From the NCBI GenBank assembly GCA_903857795.1, contig CAIOGM010000084.1, positions 1-38,291 of the forward strand: a DNA stretch of 38,291 nt, read 5' to 3'. A model generated the notes under the pieces. That model was not told the origin of the DNA. It did not search any database and saw nothing but the letters and a program-made list of their open reading frames with translations. Numbering within the stretch: position 1 is the first letter of the stretch; each line of letters starts with the position of its first letter. This document shows, one piece after another, positions 1 to 29,710 of the stretch. The translations under genes and the position numbers were made by a program. Source of the DNA: an uncultured Geobacter sp. (lineage in GTDB: Bacteria; Desulfobacterota; Desulfuromonadia; Geobacterales; CAIOGM01).

Positions 1-3728
<3,728 letters not shown>

Positions 3729-17280: not shown

Positions 17281-17373
17281 TTAAGTTATAATATGGTACG
17301 GATGTCTGCATGCATTGGTAAACAACAACCATGTCCCGCTCTTGATCGACAAAAAATGGGGGAGGTTACGACT

Positions 17374-20300
17374 ATGAAGCGCATTGTTGCAAAAATAGCA
17401 TGTTTCTTCCCGGTTTTTCTTTTTATTACAAGTATCTCCACCGAAGTGGCAAACGCCGCACCTTTCGCCTACATCGCTAATTTTAACGACAACAATGTTT
17501 CAGTGATAGACACTGCGACCAATGCAGTTGTGGGAAGCCCGATTGCGGTGGGAACTAAACCCAGTTCCTTGGCGGTCGACCCCGCTGGCGCTTTCGTCTA
17601 CGTCGTCAACTACGGGAGCAATACGGTTTCGGTACTGAGCACTGCCACCAACACGGTTGTCAGCACCATCGCGGTTCCAGGCCCCGGTGGGATCGCAGTT
17701 CATCCTGCCGGCACCTCTGTTTATGTCACCAACTATAGCAGCAGCAAGGTTTCGGTAATCGATACGTATGACAATACGGTTGTCCAGACGATCGCAGTCG
17801 GGACCGATCCCCTGGGCATTGCAGTCAATCCTGCCGGTACCCTCGTATATGTTGCAAACTCTTCAAGCAACACTGTCTCAGTAATTGACACGGACACAAA
17901 TTCCGTAGTTACCAGCATCCCGGTTCAGACCGCTCCTTTCGGCGTCGCACTTGATTCCTCGGGCGCCAGATTATATGTCTCGAACAGGTCAAGCGGCACC
18001 GTTTCGGTGATAGATACCGCAACCAACACCGTTGTAGCAACTGCAGGAGATTCCGGCACGGCCGGAGCAAAACCTGTAGGTGTGGCAGTACATCCGTCCG
18101 GCGCTCGGGTATATGTGGCAAGCTATGCCTACGATTGTGTCTCGGTGATAGATACAGCCACCAACACTATTGTCGGCAACCCGATTTATGTCGGAACCTC
18201 TCCTCTTAGTGTGGCGCTCAACCCTTCGGGCACATTACTGTATGTAACGAACAATGGCAGCGCGAATGTTTCGGTGATAGACACGGCCAGCAATACAGTC
18301 GTCAAAACTGTTACAGTGGGAAACGCCCCCACGTCTGCGGGGCTGTTTATCGGTCCTGATGCAGTTAACGGAGCTTGCGGCAGTGACAACACTCTGACTC
18401 TAAGCACCGAACCCGGCAATTTGTGCACAGCAGGCGCCCCGAGCAGTATCAAGGCCGGCGCCACCAGTTATACCTGGAGTTGCAATGGCAACGGCGTCGG
18501 CGCCACGGCCGCCTGTTCGGCGCTGCGCCTCTACGAAGTTTCCACCAGCGTCAGCGGCGACCACGGTATCATCGACACCAGTCGGTATGTGCCCTACAAC
18601 GCCACTCCCACCTTCACCATAACCCCTAAAACCGGCTACCTGCCAGGACCCGTTTCCGGTACCTGCGGTGGAACGCCGAGCGGAAATAATTTCACAACAA
18701 ATGCGGTTACCGCCAGTTGTACCGTTGCAGCAACGTTTATCCCGGCTGCGACTACCCCCATATCCTTTGGTTTTATTGCGCAAAAAGGCATAGCCCCGAA
18801 TTCTGTGGCGACATCCACGACCATTACCGTTTCCGGTATCGCTGCCGGCGCAGCACCAATTGCAATTGCGGGTGGTACCTATTCGATTAACGGTGGGGCC
18901 TACAGCGCACTGGCCGGGACCATTAAAAATGGCGATACGGTGACATTACGCCAGACTTCGTCGGCGACTCCCGGGGTAATGACCACCGCAACAGTGAACA
19001 TCGGCGGGATTAAAGGTGACTTCTGGGTAACCACCTCGGGCGCCGGTTGCCAACTCTCCCCCGTCTTGAATAGTGGCACCGGATCATATTACACATCGAT
19101 CCAGAACGCCTACGATCATGCGGGCAGTGCTGATGTCCTGGAGATCCTCGCATTCAGCTTCGGGGAAGATTTACTCCTCAACGGACATAAGAAGGTAACC
19201 TTGAAGGGTGGTTTTAACTGTGCCTATGCGACGAATGCGAACCAGTATACAACTGTCCGCACTCTTACCGTGAGCGGAACAACGGGGCAGGTAATCGCTG
19301 CCAACCTGATTATCGGCGGTATCGACGATGCAACTTCCAAATCTTCTTCCTCAGGGATACTTACCCTTCCACAAGGGATCGTAATTTCTCCGCATAGCCT
19401 CACGATCACCTCGGCCACCGGAGATGTAGCAGTAGGGGCGGATGGCAATTTCAGGGTGGCCGAACCCCAGGGGGGTGGCCTGGCAACGTTAAGCGTTACT
19501 GACAGTAACGGTAAACTCGTACTGCTTGGCTATCTGGACGGCGATCATCCGGAAAAAAACGCTGCTAATCCTACAACTACTGCGGTGGAGTTACTTTTCT
19601 GGTCGACGTTGTCGTTCATGTTTCCGCAGGAAGAGTGGCCACGGATATATGATCTTCTGACAGCGGCCCCGGAGACCGCGACTCTTGCCGACGTGATTGC
19701 GGCCAGAATGATCATCAATCCAACCGCAGTCGGGGATCGGGATCCGGCGATCACGGCCGCCTTAACTGCTGCGACCAACTCCCTCCGGAACCCGAACAGA
19801 AACCAGGCCAAGGCTACACAACGGGCAGTTTCTGAAAGCATCATCGACCCGAAAATTGTTTCCAACAGTGCGAGTTCCGATAAGGTTATGGTCTCAGTAC
19901 TTACCGGGAATTTTTACGGGTTGTCGGTTCTACCCAGCCTCGACGATCTGGGGATCATAATTCAAAACCGTTGTCGTATTCACCGACGCTACGTGCTGTT
20001 CCGTACCGGTTTCATTCCGAATACAGGCCATTTCAGTGATCCTCCGACACTGCTGCCGAAATGGATACAGGAGGATAACGGCTATATTTCGGCTACTACC
20101 GGAGTTACGGCGGTAATCGGAGGATACATAGACGCCTTTTCAGGAAATAGAAAAATTGCCTGGGCGCCCAAAATAACTCCCACAATACCTCTCCCAATCT
20201 CCCCGACAGACGCCAAGGCGAGTATTTTCAGAGTGTATGTCGTTGGACCCGGTATCGGTGATCTTCTCGGCAGCATACCAGCTGACCTGATGAATCAACC

Positions 20301-21399
20301 TGAAGCAAAGAGTGCGGTCGTTCATGCTTTTGATGAAGCAGGAATGCTGACCCTCGGGAAGGAATTGCTTTGGCCGATGTTTTCAAAAATATTACCGGCA
20401 GCTTTTCCCATTCCCGATTCTGATTCAATGTTGTCTTTGATGACGAATCTCGCGGGTCAATTGACTACGTTTGGCCTCAACCTGGACCCTTATATTGAAA
20501 AAAATGATTTGAACGGCGCTGTTACCGAGTTGGTAAAGCTCCTGACAAGCAATCCTCAGGCAAGGACGATTGCTTTCCAGTTGGTGTCCAATGTGCTCGT
20601 CAAGATGAGTCCGAATGCTGCAACCGCCGGTAAATGCCTGGAGAAAACTTTTGCAAACATATGCAAAGCGCTAAATTTAGCGGATATAATCCTGCTTGGA
20701 TCTGACATGAATCTTATTCTCTATGATGTAAAGAATTCCAACATGATAAATCAGTGGGATGTGAAGGCGATTTCCGGGACCACCACACTCAAACCAGCAA
20801 TTGCCAAAGTCAGCAAAGCAACGCCGAAAGCCACGTTTACCTTGAGAGTAATGGGCGTTCCCGGTACGGAACTGCCGCTCTACTATATGTGGTATGGAGT
20901 CAACAAGGGCGTTTTTGATGATCACAAAAATCCGCCAAATGACATTCTCCTTACCGATCAGTCAATTGTCACATACAACGCTTATGCTCCAGTTCCGACG
21001 AGCGGAACCGATACCGTATTGGTTGATATTTTTGATGCGCATAAGGTAGTTATTAAAACTGCAACTGCAACCGTGCAATTCAGAGATTATGTGGGTAGTG
21101 ATTGGTGGGGAGTATGGGTGGGAACGTTTACCTCAACCTGTGGTGGAGGTTGGGGAGGAGCAGACCTTCAGGTAGGTGGTGATCCAACAAATCCCGAAAA
21201 TGGATTGTTCGTCTTAGTGGCAAGCACATGGTACGCTTGGACTATCTCAGAATTCATGGCAACCGCCTCCGGAGACACGGCGGTGTCGACGGATGGTTCA
21301 GTTGTCATGAAACTCTCGGGTGATGGTGCTATACAGGCCACGTTTACACTTGATAATTCGTGTGAGCAAAGCGGCGTCTTTACCTATTCCCATCGCTGA
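17374..21399 (+). CDS. Large secreted protein with seven-blade YVTN beta-propeller
   Basis: 1341 residues. ATG 17374 gives a clear signal peptide (MKRIVAKIACFFPVFLFITS, cleavage after ANA) and has GGGGGAGG 9 bases upstream; ATG 17293 would place 27 hydrophilic residues before it. After cleavage, seven repeats of about 42 residues follow (VSVIDTATNTVV ... G..LYVTN), forming one seven-blade propeller (about residues 30-330). A Cys-containing module follows (ACGSDN ... CSALRL), then a second (STSVSGDHGIID ... CTVAATF), then a beta-rich module (SFGFIAQKGIAPNSVATSTT). The remaining 750 residues are unassigned and include a W-rich C-terminal domain (DWWGVWVGTF). Such proteins are usually exported or surface-attached; no sorting motif or anchor is visible. 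The T-rich TATAAT at 17287-17292 may be its -10 box, with a weak -35. Confidence 0.85.
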   Translation: MKRIVAKIACFFPVFLFITSISTEVANAAPFAYIANFNDNNVSVIDTATNAVVGSPIAVGTKPSSLAVDPAGAFVYVVNYGSNTVSVLSTATNTVVSTIAVPGPGGIAVHPAGTSVYVTNYSSSKVSVIDTYDNTVVQTIAVGTDPLGIAVNPAGTLVYVANSSSNTVSVIDTDTNSVVTSIPVQTAPFGVALDSSGARLYVSNRSSGTVSVIDTATNTVVATAGDSGTAGAKPVGVAVHPSGARVYVASYAYDCVSVIDTATNTIVGNPIYVGTSPLSVALNPSGTLLYVTNNGSANVSVIDTASNTVVKTVTVGNAPTSAGLFIGPDAVNGACGSDNTLTLSTEPGNLCTAGAPSSIKAGATSYTWSCNGNGVGATAACSALRLYEVSTSVSGDHGIIDTSRYVPYNATPTFTITPKTGYLPGPVSGTCGGTPSGNNFTTNAVTASCTVAATFIPAATTPISFGFIAQKGIAPNSVATSTTITVSGIAAGAAPIAIAGGTYSINGGAYSALAGTIKNGDTVTLRQTSSATPGVMTTATVNIGGIKGDFWVTTSGAGCQLSPVLNSGTGSYYTSIQNAYDHAGSADVLEILAFSFGEDLLLNGHKKVTLKGGFNCAYATNANQYTTVRTLTVSGTTGQVIAANLIIGGIDDATSKSSSSGILTLPQGIVISPHSLTITSATGDVAVGADGNFRVAEPQGGGLATLSVTDSNGKLVLLGYLDGDHPEKNAANPTTTAVELLFWSTLSFMFPQEEWPRIYDLLTAAPETATLADVIAARMIINPTAVGDRDPAITAALTAATNSLRNPNRNQAKATQRAVSESIIDPKIVSNSASSDKVMVSVLTGNFYGLSVLPSLDDLGIIIQNRCRIHRRYVLFRTGFIPNTGHFSDPPTLLPKWIQEDNGYISATTGVTAVIGGYIDAFSGNRKIAWAPKITPTIPLPISPTDAKASIFRVYVVGPGIGDLLGSIPADLMNQPEAKSAVVHAFDEAGMLTLGKELLWPMFSKILPAAFPIPDSDSMLSLMTNLAGQLTTFGLNLDPYIEKNDLNGAVTELVKLLTSNPQARTIAFQLVSNVLVKMSPNAATAGKCLEKTFANICKALNLADIILLGSDMNLILYDVKNSNMINQWDVKAISGTTTLKPAIAKVSKATPKATFTLRVMGVPGTELPLYYMWYGVNKGVFDDHKNPPNDILLTDQSIVTYNAYAPVPTSGTDTVLVDIFDAHKVVIKTATATVQFRDYVGSDWWGVWVGTFTSTCGGGWGGADLQVGGDPTNPENGLFVLVASTWYAWTISEFMATASGDTAVSTDGSVVMKLSGDGAIQATFTLDNSCEQSGVFTYSHR

Positions 21400-22193: not shown

Positions 22194-22236
22194 GTGTCGG
22201 AATTCTTTACACTTCAGGTGTCGAAATTCTTTACAC
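22194..22236 (+). promoter_or_regulatory. Pair of 19-bp dyads upstream of PEP-CTERM gene 1
   Basis: GTGTCGGAATTCTTTACAC (22194-22212) and GTGTCGAAATTCTTTACAC (22218-22236), start to start 24 bases. Both are imperfect palindromes with GTGT/ACAC ends. They lie 70 bases before the sigma-54 site. The same paired motif stands before the second PEP-CTERM gene, so it is probably an activator-binding (enhancer) site. Confidence 0.8.
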
Positions 22237-22305: not shown

Positions 22306-22321
22306 TGGCATGATATTTGCT
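22306..22321 (+). promoter_or_regulatory. Sigma-54 (-24/-12) promoter of PEP-CTERM gene 1
   Basis: TGGCATGATATTTGCT matches the RpoN consensus TGGCACG-N4-TTGC at all but one base, with GG and GC exactly 10 bases apart. The predicted transcript starts near 22332, about 38 bases before the gene. Confidence 0.85.
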
Positions 22322-22369: not shown

Positions 22370-23071
22370 ATGAAAAAACAGATTCTGTCCCTAATCACCC
22401 AAACAGTTCTCACTCTTGCACTGTTTTCCGCTGCATCGGCAGCCACGACTATTGATGACTTCAGAACAAGCACCAAGCTCAATACTCCGCATGACATTAC
22501 AGAAGGATATATTTCTGAAGATTTGTTCCATAATGATGCCGGAACCAATATCATTGCAGGAGCAGGAGGAGAGAGGAGCGTTGATATCTTCGCCGGTTCG
22601 ACTGATAGTGGCGGAAAAACCACTACGCAAATACTGAATGGCGTCACATTTGGAGTAAATCTGAATAATGAAGAAAGTACGGCTTCAATCGGTTTTCGCT
22701 ATGATGCTGGAACCAGCTTTGATTTATTGAGTGGTGGAAACACCACAATCTGGATGAATATACTTGGGGCGTCAGGACCATATAAATTTCAAGTTAATTT
22801 ATGGGATGACAATCAAAACAGTGTTGTCTATAAAGAGATGTCTGGTGCTGGTTTAGCTGGAATATCTTTGAATTCATTCACTGGAATAGATTTGCACGAT
22901 ATTGACATCATAATGATATCATTAATACAGACATCGCACTCTGAAGGTAACTACAAGATAGACAGCATTTATCTTGACAATGTTAGCAGTGTCCCCGAAC
23001 CTTCAACCTTCCTTCTACTTGGCGCAGGTTTCAGTGGTTTGGCTCTTATCAGAAGGAGATCCAAGAAGTAG
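22370..23071 (+). CDS. PEP-CTERM sorting-domain protein 1
   Basis: 233 residues. ATG 22370 follows AAGGAG and gives a signal peptide (MKKQILSLITQTVLTLALFS, ending ASA-A). The body is Ser/Thr/Asn/Gly-rich and beta-type, with no recognised catalytic domain. The C-terminus is a full sorting signal: VPEPSTFLLLGAGFSGLALI, then RRRSKK. Such proteins are exported, cut at the PEP motif by an exosortase and often sent to exopolysaccharide matrix or the cell surface; no exosortase is in this window. The promoter is sigma-54 type with upstream dyads, and the 3' end is shared with the second PEP-CTERM gene at 28998. ATG 22343 is an earlier in-frame start, less likely because it would precede the ribosome-binding site. 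Confidence 0.92.
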   Translation: MKKQILSLITQTVLTLALFSAASAATTIDDFRTSTKLNTPHDITEGYISEDLFHNDAGTNIIAGAGGERSVDIFAGSTDSGGKTTTQILNGVTFGVNLNNEESTASIGFRYDAGTSFDLLSGGNTTIWMNILGASGPYKFQVNLWDDNQNSVVYKEMSGAGLAGISLNSFTGIDLHDIDIIMISLIQTSHSEGNYKIDSIYLDNVSSVPEPSTFLLLGAGFSGLALIRRRSKK

Positions 23072-23097
23072 TGACCGCATTCACCGCCAAATCATAT

Positions 23098-23136
23098 GAG
23101 CCCTGACGGATTCATTTCCTTCAGGGTTCTTTCTTA
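23098..23136 (+). terminator. Terminator of PEP-CTERM gene 1
   Basis: Stem GAGCCCTGA (23098-23106) and TCAGGGTTC (23121-23129) with one G-T pair, followed by TTTCTTA. The same sequence module follows the second PEP-CTERM gene. Confidence 0.8.
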
Positions 23137-23150
23137 TCCAATATGCAGAA

Positions 23151-24904: not shown

Positions 24905-25288
24905 TTAAGCAGCCAGTTTTCTGTCTACGACGAGTATGTGATTGAGCAACCATTCCCAAAGAAACTCGATCAAATCATTGCTAATCTTGCTTCTGTCATT
25001 TTCGCTCAGCCGAGCCAAATCATTTACATTCGTTCTGAAGCAGTCATGCTCAGCAATATGACTTTCGGCATGGCCGTATCCGATCTCCTGCATATATGCT
25101 TCTTCTGCACTAAAGTGTGTTCCTGTGTAACTATTAAGTTCGTCTATGGCATCTGAGACAATACGGCTGACACGCTCACCGGAGATACTGTCGTATAATC
25201 TGTTAAGAATGACAAGTAACTGCTCATGCTGGGCGTCTAGTTCTGGTATCCCGATACAATAATCGTCTGACCATATCAAAAGCGGCAT
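24905..25288 (-). CDS. Bacteriohemerythrin 1
   Basis: 127 residues, the normal single-domain length. All di-iron ligand positions can be seen: DAQH near residue 21, the pair THFSAEE (H-x3-E), SHIAEH (H-x3-H) and NHILVVD (H-x4-D). It should bind O2 reversibly at a non-haem di-iron centre, for oxygen sensing, storage or delivery. AAGGAG precedes ATG 25288. It stands upstream of the MucR-like gene by 19 bases and 75 bases after hemerythrin 2, in a run of same-strand genes. Confidence 0.93.
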   Translation of the reverse strand: MPLLIWSDDYCIGIPELDAQHEQLLVILNRLYDSISGERVSRIVSDAIDELNSYTGTHFSAEEAYMQEIGYGHAESHIAEHDCFRTNVNDLARLSENDRSKISNDLIEFLWEWLLNHILVVDRKLAA

Positions 25289-25363: not shown

Positions 25364-25759
25364 CTAGACAACTACATCCTGTTCAACAAACTTTCTATCC
25401 TCTTCTATCTCATGACTTAGAAGCCAGTTACCGAGCACAACAATTAGTTCTCTGCAACAGTCATTGTCGGTAACGACACAACAGTTTTGCAGCTCTTTGA
25501 TTTTGTTGGCAAATGTTTGGTGCATCTCTAGGTGGGCTTCGATGTCTGCGTAATTGATATCCCTCATGTATTGCTCTTCTGAAGACATATGCTGCTCAGA
25601 ATACATCAAGAGATCGTTGATAGCCAGAGCATAATCAATCTCATCATTTGCCATGCATTTATCGTACAGTCGGTTGAACGTTTCGAACAACATCTTATGT
25701 TGACTATCTATTGCCTCGTTCTTGACTGAGTAAAAACTGTACCATTTGATGATTCCCAT
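25364..25759 (-). CDS. Bacteriohemerythrin 2
   Basis: 131 residues. The ligands are DSQH, EQHMSSEE, AHLEMH and SHEIEED, so the di-iron site is complete. The N-terminus (MGIIKWYSFYSVKNEAID) and an extra Cys-Cys pair (CCVV, CC) before the last helix distinguish it from its neighbours. It is therefore a diverged paralogue rather than a recent copy. AGGAG precedes ATG 25759. It lies between hemerythrins 1 and 3 with gaps of 75 and 92 bases. Confidence 0.92.
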   Translation of the reverse strand: MGIIKWYSFYSVKNEAIDSQHKMLFETFNRLYDKCMANDEIDYALAINDLLMYSEQHMSSEEQYMRDINYADIEAHLEMHQTFANKIKELQNCCVVTDNDCCRELIVVLGNWLLSHEIEEDRKFVEQDVVV

Positions 25760-25851: not shown

Positions 25852-26235
25852 TCATATTGCATACTTCTTATCTTCCTCAGTAACGTGCTGTATCAGCCAG
25901 TTGCTCAAGAACTCTACGAGTTTGTTATCAGTATCAGGCCTGTACTGTGCCTGCCTTCTTTTGGCGAACTTGATCTCATTCGTGAAGTAGTTATGGTAGG
26001 TGATATGTTTGTCTAGGTCTTTGTACTCTGCGTCTCGCATGAGCTGCTCTTCGAACTTGAAGTGGTAATGAGTATATGATTCTAACTCTTCAGTAACTGA
26101 CTCGACTGAGTCGACGTCATTTTTACTTACACATATATCGAATAGCCTGTTTAGAATGTCAAACAGCTTCTTATGCTGAGTGTCTATCTCTTCGTTACCA
26201 ATATAATACTCATCCGACCAAGCGAATAGTGGCAT
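25852..26235 (-). CDS. Bacteriohemerythrin 3
   Basis: 127 residues with a complete ligand set: DTQH, YHFKFEE, KHITYH and QHVTEED. The N-terminus MPLFAWSDEYYIGNEEID closely parallels hemerythrin 1, so these two are the nearest pair by eye. GAGGAT precedes ATG 26235. It starts 45 bases after the membrane J-domain gene and probably shares its transcript. Confidence 0.93.
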   Translation of the reverse strand: MPLFAWSDEYYIGNEEIDTQHKKLFDILNRLFDICVSKNDVDSVESVTEELESYTHYHFKFEEQLMRDAEYKDLDKHITYHNYFTNEIKFAKRRQAQYRPDTDNKLVEFLSNWLIQHVTEEDKKYAI

Positions 26236-27245: not shown

Positions 27246-27647
27246 CTATGATATGACCTTTGGTCCAAATAAATGTTTCAGCTTCATATCTTCTGTAAGT
27301 ATATGATTAACCTTCCAATCTAAAACGAAGTCGATGAGCTTCTTCCTCTGCTCGATATCTTTATCGTCTATTTCTGCCTTGATTTTGCTCAACTTTCTCA
27401 ATAGCTGGCGATGTGATTCGACGTGTTGCTCTATTCCCTCATAACAGTTATCGACCATGAGGATACGTTCTGTCCTGAAATGAGATTTTGCAAATTGCTC
27501 TAGGTATGTGATGTACACAGCGTTATATGACCTATTGTATATCCCTTTGTCGTTATTCATCATGTCGAGAACATCAAATAAACGTCTATGCTGATCATCA
27601 AGCACTTCGTTGCCAACAGAATGGCTTTCGTCCCATTTGAAATCCAT
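27246..27647 (-). CDS. Hemerythrin-domain protein 4
   Basis: 133 residues. The ligands are present: DDQH, SHFRTE (H-x3-E), QHVESH and NHILTED. The sequence diverges most from the other three, with a DMMNNDKGIYNRS insert in place of the usual first loop. AGAGGTGAT precedes ATG 27647, and the 10-bp palindrome CTTACGTAAG (27660-27669) overlaps the ribosome-site region. It is separated from the other hemerythrins by the gene remnant and the J-protein. Confidence 0.9.
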   Translation of the reverse strand: MDFKWDESHSVGNEVLDDQHRRLFDVLDMMNNDKGIYNRSYNAVYITYLEQFAKSHFRTERILMVDNCYEGIEQHVESHRQLLRKLSKIKAEIDDKDIEQRKKLIDFVLDWKVNHILTEDMKLKHLFGPKVIS

Positions 27648-28779: not shown

Positions 28780-28830
28780 GTGTCGGAAAATTTTACAGTT
28801 GATGGAGTAAAGTGTCGGAAAACTTTACAA
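28780..28830 (+). promoter_or_regulatory. Pair of 19-bp dyads upstream of PEP-CTERM gene 2
   Basis: GTGTCGGAAAATTTTACAG (28780-28798) and GTGTCGGAAAACTTTACAA (28812-28830), start to start 32 bases, 115 bases before the sigma-54 site. They match the pair at 22194-22236. The remaining bases 28520-28779 hold nothing I can identify. Confidence 0.8.
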
Positions 28831-28944: not shown

Positions 28945-28960
28945 GGGCGCAAATATTGCA
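28945..28960 (+). promoter_or_regulatory. Sigma-54 (-24/-12) promoter of PEP-CTERM gene 2
   Basis: GGGCGCAAATATTGCA keeps GG and GC 10 bases apart and most of the RpoN consensus (GGC at -24, TTGCA at -12). The transcript would start near 28971, 27 bases before the gene. Confidence 0.75.
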
Positions 28961-28997: not shown

Positions 28998-29642
28998 ATG
29001 CGAAAAGTCATCCTGTCATTCGTTATCATTTTTGTCATCACCTTACCCTTGGCATTCACGGCTACTGCTTCACTTGTTACCCTTGATGTAACTGGCGTCT
29101 TGTCTTCTTCTAGCTATTTGGGAACTACGCGCCTTGCCGATAACACACCATTCTCATATACGGCCACATTTGATTCATCCAGTGGTGCAGGTTATTACCC
29201 AGTAAGCAGTCTAGTGTTTACTCTTACTGGATACGGTACATACCATATGGTATCAGGAACAACCATGAATGTCTTCGCCAGAGATAAAATTCAAACATAT
29301 GGCACATATCAAGCAGGACTAGAAAGTGGATATAACAAATATTTCTATACTAACTATAATAATTCAACTCCTTCACCTTGGTTTACAACTGATCCTTTTG
29401 TTTCGGTAACTTTTTCTAATATGTACGCACCAAGTGCCTCCCAAACACTTGTTATACCGTTTACCGAAGGAGTGTCTCTTACCGGTATAGATTGGGGTAG
29501 CAATACGACTGCTGAAGCACCAAACAGAGTAGAGCCGACTGCGGTCTATGATGCTGCAACCGTCCCCGAACCATCTACGTTGCTGCTCCTCGGCGCAGGT
29601 TTCGGTGGCCTAGCCCTCCTGAAGAGAAGATCTAAGAAGTAG
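28998..29642 (+). CDS. PEP-CTERM sorting-domain protein 2
   Basis: 214 residues. ATG 28998 follows GGAGG and gives a signal peptide (MRKVILSFVIIFVITLPLAF). The mature body is rich in Ser, Thr, Tyr and Gly and predicted beta-type. The C-terminus, VPEPSTLLLLGAGFGGLALL then KRRSKK, is a complete exosortase signal. The body shows no visible similarity to PEP-CTERM protein 1, yet sorting signal, terminator and promoter architecture match. Likely exported and processed at the cell surface under sigma-54 control. Confidence 0.92.
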   Translation: MRKVILSFVIIFVITLPLAFTATASLVTLDVTGVLSSSSYLGTTRLADNTPFSYTATFDSSSGAGYYPVSSLVFTLTGYGTYHMVSGTTMNVFARDKIQTYGTYQAGLESGYNKYFYTNYNNSTPSPWFTTDPFVSVTFSNMYAPSASQTLVIPFTEGVSLTGIDWGSNTTAEAPNRVEPTAVYDAATVPEPSTLLLLGAGFGGLALLKRRSKK

Positions 29643-29668
29643 TAACCGTATCATCACCAGAGTCATAT

Positions 29669-29710
29669 GAACCCTGTCGGATTCACTTCCCACAGGGTTC
29701 TTTCTTTTTT
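29669..29710 (+). terminator. Terminator of PEP-CTERM gene 2
   Basis: Perfect stem GAACCCTGT (29669-29677) and ACAGGGTTC (29692-29700) followed by TTTCTTTTTT. The following 29711-29940 bases show no gene. Confidence 0.9.

Follow-up and report, generated by a model that had tools for sequence, protein, structure and literature searches.

The closest described counterpart of the locus reported here is the PEP-CTERM/exosortase (EpsH) system with PrsK-PrsR and sigma-54 (Haft et al. 2006, PMC1569441). As far as that account describes it, the two are alike in the C-terminal PEP motif, membrane helix and basic end of the proteins, in the presence of dozens of such proteins whose bodies belong to no recognised families, and in the TTTACA box and sigma-54 site upstream of the genes. 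PEP-CTERM is already known to be a module that has expanded in a lineage-specific way and turns over fast, and the turnover of the proteins has been attributed to duplication and loss (PMC1569441); in a text search of that article, neither gene conversion nor recombination nor terminators came up. In the present analysis, we trace the shared unit in the DNA beyond the stop codon and into a terminator and propose a replacement of bodies with junctions in the tail, which distinguishes it from what that article sets out. A literature search found no report of tail-mediated body exchange and none of a DNA-level boundary at the PEP-CTERM tail together with a shared terminator. In cassette-type variation of surface proteins, for instance of pilin and other surface antigens, a variable part lies between constant flanks. 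The genes considered here are similar in that a variable part would be swapped between constant flanks, in tandem copies with converted ends and in truncated copies. They are unlike those systems in that neither phase variation nor silent copies serving an expression site were seen, and in that the changes are between species and not between cells.

The window, i.e. the whole stretch of 38,291 nucleotides that was analysed, corresponds to contig C84 of G000, a draft genome of 4.05 Mb and 179 contigs. This genome has 47 matches to PF07589, of which 44 are above the cut-off and make up the gene set used below (the three left out are all below it), and, also above the cut-offs, three exosortase matches (PF09721) and one PrsR match (TIGR02915). 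Two PEP-CTERM genes, Wa and Wb, lie in the window with the following features.

22195-22211 and 22219-22235, + strand: two PrsR-box-like sites upstream of Wa (pattern TGTCGGAANNNTTTACA, 0 and 1 mismatch)
22306..22321, + strand: likely sigma-54 promoter of Wa, GG-N10-GC, found by eye
22370..23071, + strand: Wa, PEP-CTERM protein of 233 aa; its only body relative is the remnant C177a
22988..23071, + strand: PEP-CTERM tail of Wa including the stop codon (PF07589)
23072..23137, + strand: shared 3' segment of Wa, spacer and terminator hairpin (23098-23129) with T-run
28781-28797 and 28813-28829, + strand: two PrsR-box-like sites upstream of Wb (both 0 mismatch)
28945..28960, + strand: likely sigma-54 promoter of Wb, GG-N10-GC, found by eye
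28998..29642, + strand: Wb, PEP-CTERM protein of 214 aa; body relative C33:41441
29559..29642, + strand: PEP-CTERM tail of Wb including the stop codon (PF07589)
29643..29708, + strand: shared 3' segment of Wb, spacer and terminator hairpin (29669-29700) with T-run

Both proteins belong to the family by PF07589 (26.9 bits for Wa and 27.7 bits for Wb; cut-off 20.7) and by TIGR02595 (25.7 and 30.8; cut-off 16), and both N-termini have a hydrophobic start by eye. Wa and Wb are predicted to be secreted PEP-CTERM proteins with different bodies on homologous 3' ends. Between them on the minus strand are four similar-looking ORFs of 127-133 aa (24905-25288, 25364-25759, 25852-26235 and 27246-27647), which by eye are hemerythrin-like.

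A blind search for direct repeats of at least 25 nt between 20000 and 32000 returned a single family, 22991-23135 and 29562-29706 (145 nt, 77%, ungapped), in agreement with the initial annotation, in which 22990-23137 and 29560-29710 had been described as aligning closely from the PEP motif to the terminator. The similarity of Wa and Wb extends from the PEP codons to the T-run of the hairpin, with 59/78 nt identical from the PEP codons to the stop and 54/65, with two gaps, in the first 66 nt 3' of the stop; by part, the last 18 coding nucleotides match at 16/18, the spacer at 21/26 and the hairpin with T-run at 33/39. The local score over 80 nt downstream is 37 versus a shuffled maximum of 15 in 946 comparisons among the 44 PEP-CTERM genes, and the two hairpins fold with z of -6.9 and -6.6 relative to shuffles. 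The bodies had been said to look unrelated, and indeed 400 nt of body DNA gave no alignment (score 14; shuffled maximum 18), blastp gave no match at E<=0.01, and the 46 body codons adjoining the tail agree, ungapped, at 50/138. Thus, the similarity is uneven, and the equal similarity throughout the genes that would have meant simple duplication is not seen. Moreover, Wa and Wb resemble each other more closely in the spacer than at the synonymous sites of the PEP/membrane part (Fisher p=0.008), as do Wb and C177a (p=0.0006) and, less clearly, Wa and C177a (p=0.08). Tail and spacer may, therefore, differ in history; the Wa-Wb spacer is either under constraint or was common to both genes more recently than the tail.

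The 3' segment is not common to most PEP-CTERM genes of G000. A lack of similarity 3' of the stop in other copies, which the initial annotation had named as a refutation, applies to most of the 44 genes; 24/946 gene pairs score above the shuffled maximum. Searching the 4.05-Mb genome with the segment of C177a gave ten matches with E up to 10. Eight of them follow PEP-CTERM genes, four with E<1e-12 and four with E 0.02-2.8; the ninth is a PEP-CTERM site read on its reverse strand, and the tenth lies elsewhere (C84:26719, E 0.8). A covariance model built from nine segments matched only its nine training sequences at E<0.01. An origin as dispersed repeat or generic terminator is rejected for the strong copies because these lie only behind PEP-CTERM genes. 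Deep conservation is likewise rejected, as a search of 57 other genomes of the order, including three from the same genus, did not find the Wb segment at E<=0.001. Within the nine aligned segments, 3/11 hairpin pairs are changed on both sides, and 93.9% of the cells pair. Beyond the window, the strong copies are C177:219 (C177a) and C140:62646 (C140b), and the weaker ones are C177:29370, C77, C22 and the C178 pair. C177a retains only about the last 46 body codons, and C140b lacks an in-frame start and a signal sequence. Both are 5'-truncated remnants, which leaves Wa and Wb as the sole strong pair with intact genes. By eye, the DNA 3' of the C177a terminator resembles the end of a transposase gene.

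Wa and C177a have diverged 3' of the stop as much as Wa and Wb have (54/65), and they match at 65/78 in the tail and at 114/138 in the adjoining body. Whole-gene duplicates should have bodies as alike as those of another pair with equal 3' divergence, and 114/138 versus 50/138 makes a simple duplication of Wa and Wb unlikely. A test of C177a as a mosaic of the two genes did not reach significance (permutation p 0.18). When 141 genomes of the order were searched, the Wa body had no match except C177a. The Wb body matched C33:41441 of the same genome (43%, E 1.1e-5) and, weakly and in part, two sequences of other genera (E 4e-4 and 6e-4); with signal and tail included, the full Wb protein is 35% identical to C33a and 29% to C33b. 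The C33 genes have a different tail type and no such terminator. Because the nearest relative of the Wb body carries another 3' end, the body and the 3' end of Wb have separate histories. No orthologous locus of Wa or Wb was found in the genomes searched. Recent gene conversion of the two genes is rejected, as 12/21 same-residue tail codons differ, and the share of identical codons is near the mean of unrelated-body pairs within genomes (0.44).

The same questions were followed in four genomes of the genus (G000-G003), all of them drafts and one per species. From the three further genomes, the loci of 113 PF07589 matches were retrieved, and 153 genes of the four genomes, found by regular expression, were analysed after removal of two false positives in G001; this set lacks a fourth G000 match (C51), at least two of the 51 matches of G002 and at least one of the 16 of G003. 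Same-residue codons number 12 or more in 1415 within-genome pairs, and in four of these pairs all of them are identical. One is a plain duplicate in G002, and the other three (C129 in G000, C219 and C414 in G001) are tandem neighbours with unalignable body DNA. In the C129 pair, the 84 nt up to the stop have one mismatch and 23/23 codons are identical, while the body DNA adjoining the tail is unalignable and the body proteins show a weak relationship (48% over 27 aa). The two C129 genes (L011/L012) also have about 150 nt of nearly identical upstream DNA, which includes a palindrome also found at other places. Neighbours account for 15 of the 1415 pairs. Of pairs with unrelated bodies, neighbours have a median identical fraction of 0.64 (12 pairs) and others of 0.43 (1356 pairs), with one-sided p=0.001 for pairs that are non-independent, and 5/15 neighbour pairs are at 0.53 or less and, thus, not above background. 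These data support gene conversion of tails in tandem pairs such as C129, so that the earlier suggestion that conversion keeps the ends alike finds support in some tandem pairs but not in Wa and Wb. Some of the high downstream scores in G002 (L114-1317/2171, L089/L130) seem to reflect tandem units or intergenic repeats, and we left them out of the cassette cases. Outside the genus, eight PEP-CTERM-bearing genomes with 38 matches were searched (seven single-contig, G048 in three contigs; the false positive L176+1512 was left out); they contain two within-genome pairs with similar 3' ends, both in G048 (scores 27 and 18) and perhaps alike due to a palindrome. Two neighbouring gene pairs were noticed among these genomes, in G026 and G029.

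Body segments bounded by conserved DNA are found in arrays and at syntenic loci. C82 of G000 and C173 of G002 are 98.9% identical over 1.3 kb to about five bases past the stop of the first gene and are then unlike, until similarity is back from the tail of the last gene onward (92% over 304 nt). Between these junctions, which fall in the PEP-tail repeat, there is a single gene in G000 and a pair of genes in G002, this pair being a tandem duplication from tail to tail (80% over 993 nt), and the C173 array has a fourth tail in a frame of just 56 aa. The bodies are distant paralogues, mostly 25-31% identical in amino acids, and bodies termed unrelated are in part distant paralogues. The 98.9% stretch (L034, rc 1705-3022; L114, rc 2-1322) is far above the figure of about 67-91% at other loci among the matches listed, a difference that could stem from recent between-species exchange or from mis-sorting of contigs in the drafts.

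At the syntenic loci, among the matches listed, similarity resumes 5 nt before the PEP codons in OG1 and OG3, 6-7 nt before them in OG2 and 37 nt before them in OG4. In OG5 it starts 10 nt before them, but 68% of the body is covered too, so that OG5 is no case of exchange, and other syntenic pairs among those listed align through most or all of the body, e.g. G002 and G003 in OG1. In OG1, the closest match of G001 is G003 once the tail is reached (86% of 400 nt), and G001 is the outlier in the body (33-38% versus 43-57%); its branch is 1.18 in the body tree (others 0.21-0.59) and, at 0.08, the shortest in the 3' tree. The tree of the 3' segment groups G001 with G003 (maximum-likelihood support 89; distance 874/1000). 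For the body, maximum likelihood groups G001 with G002 (support 81) and distance groups G002 with G003 (705/1000), so that the two body trees disagree with each other and both disagree with the 3' tree. In OG2, G003 stands apart, and only in the body (37-44% versus 55-67%), and G000 has kept body and 5' flank and has a different 3' flank (42-44%). At C82/C173, OG1, OG2 and OG4, a single locus thus has conserved flanks around a variable body. The idea in the initial annotation that a body was swapped in front of a fixed 3' cassette agrees with the replacement indicated at these loci and with the separate kin of the Wb body and end; for the window pair, we infer it. Its broader claim that signal and terminator travel as one unit did not hold in general. 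The tail is the constant element; the terminator accompanies it in the window family and at C129 and does not at C82/C173, where the tail is shared and the terminator is not; between Wa and Wb, spacer and tail also differ in likeness.

Based on these data, we lean, with modest confidence, towards an old exchange of bodies between paralogous PEP-CTERM genes, at or near the tail, as the origin of Wa and Wb; more generally, PEP-CTERM tails are probably crossover points for body exchange. In this model, the tail-coding DNA would often be the sole stretch common to two PEP-CTERM genes, and homologous recombination or template switching would resolve there. As a consequence, a gene could gain another body before its existing tail, or an existing tail with its terminator behind its own body. 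In some tandem neighbours, the same process would copy the tail by gene conversion or duplicate tail-to-tail units. For the window pair, the event would be old; the tail codons would have drifted, with spacer and terminator kept by constraint or by a later, smaller conversion. Counting against exchange are the non-significant mosaic, the neighbour pairs at background, the split of tail and terminator at C82/C173, the conflicting OG1 body trees, loci that align through much or all of the body such as OG5, the distant paralogy of some bodies termed unrelated, and at most two weak cases outside the genus.

The main rival is a whole-gene duplication followed by extreme divergence of the bodies, with selection keeping the sorting tail and terminator, which we consider unlikely but worth serious attention. 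Syntenic or orthologous pairs between species (L056/L061, L062/L123 and L053/L121) have strong 3' similarity with bodies at 28-37% amino acid identity, the C129 and C82 bodies are distantly related proteins, and PEP-CTERM proteins have been ranked among the most rapidly evolving sets of their genomes in the account of Haft et al. 2006 (PMC1569441). As cross-species pairs keep their 3' ends at bodies of about 30-40%, fast bodies with slow ends could yield much of the pattern without exchange. Against this, Wa and C177a have the same 3' divergence and yet similar adjoining bodies, the relative of the Wb body carries a different tail and 3' end, and OG1 and OG2 each have one species that is outlying in the body only. 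Moreover, protein selection cannot produce tails that are identical even at synonymous codons on unalignable bodies. This rival of very fast body divergence is, together with draft genomes, short sequences and one genome per species, a main weakness of our interpretation, and the drafts may contain misjoins at repeats.

Spacer and terminator could also be conserved, whatever the body, because the 3' RNA itself has a role as a strong terminator, small RNA or binding site. The spacer is more alike than the synonymous tail sites, the hairpins fold far better than shuffles and some of their pairs have changed on both sides, all in line with such a function. However, the lack of a match at E<=0.001 in the 57 other genomes of the order makes any function of the exact sequence young, and identical tails and array junctions are left unexplained, so that we regard an RNA function as improbable as the explanation, although it can coexist with body exchange. 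Finally, strong terminators might be alike by chance. The weaker members (the C178 pair and C22) have little in common beyond the hairpin, as would be expected from convergence, but the strong members agree in the spacer and the loop as well (genome search, E 1e-13 to 1e-19), which refutes it for them, and no terminator behind other kinds of genes matches comparably; overall, we judge convergence very improbable.

PEP-CTERM proteins are numerous and variable and have few relatives, and Haft et al. 2006 (PMC1569441), as far as its text goes, offers no mechanism for this beyond duplication and loss. If bodies swap at tail-coding DNA, this variability gains a mechanism that is testable in cultured relatives and across strains. 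Body and tail would then be separate lineages in any family tree, and truncated copies and orphan tails in such genomes would be accounted for. We tentatively speculate, without expecting it to be the likelier outcome, that in PEP-CTERM-rich bacteria sorting-tail DNA doubles as a recombination hinge. In this scheme, paralogous surface proteins would swap whole exposed bodies before a fixed tail, often with its terminator, conversion would keep the hinges alike, and the exosortase signal would enable a rapidly renewed surface repertoire.

The upstream regions of Wa and Wb fit PrsR/sigma-54 control as judged from sequence, in that both have a 17-nt box ending TTTACA and a GG-N10-GC promoter, and PrsR is encoded in the genome. 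The boxes of Wa resemble motif 1 of Haft et al. 2006, which ends TTTACA, and the -24 GG and -12 GC of its promoter are as reported there; the Wb promoter is 116 nt from the nearer box versus a maximum of 92 in that account (PMC1569441). At least one box-like site within two mismatches lies upstream of 13/44 PEP-CTERM genes of G000, two of the 44 having little or no upstream sequence. In the whole genome, 24 box-like sites have at most one mismatch, versus one for a reversed-pattern control, and a comparison of the PF07589 and site lists places 16/24 upstream of PEP-CTERM genes. One site with one mismatch (20727-20743, minus strand) is within the large ORF 17293-21399. Others have no PF07589 gene nearby (C87:34261-34297, C123:17572, C159:93569-93639, C110:5966 and C40:13507), and such distant sites possibly mark members of the PrsR regulon without PEP-CTERM. 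Among the 44 genes (L001-L045), the boxes occur mostly with tails of the LLLGAGL kind and never with those of the YALFSLGLGG kind; given the three exosortases, the tail kinds may be served by different enzymes.
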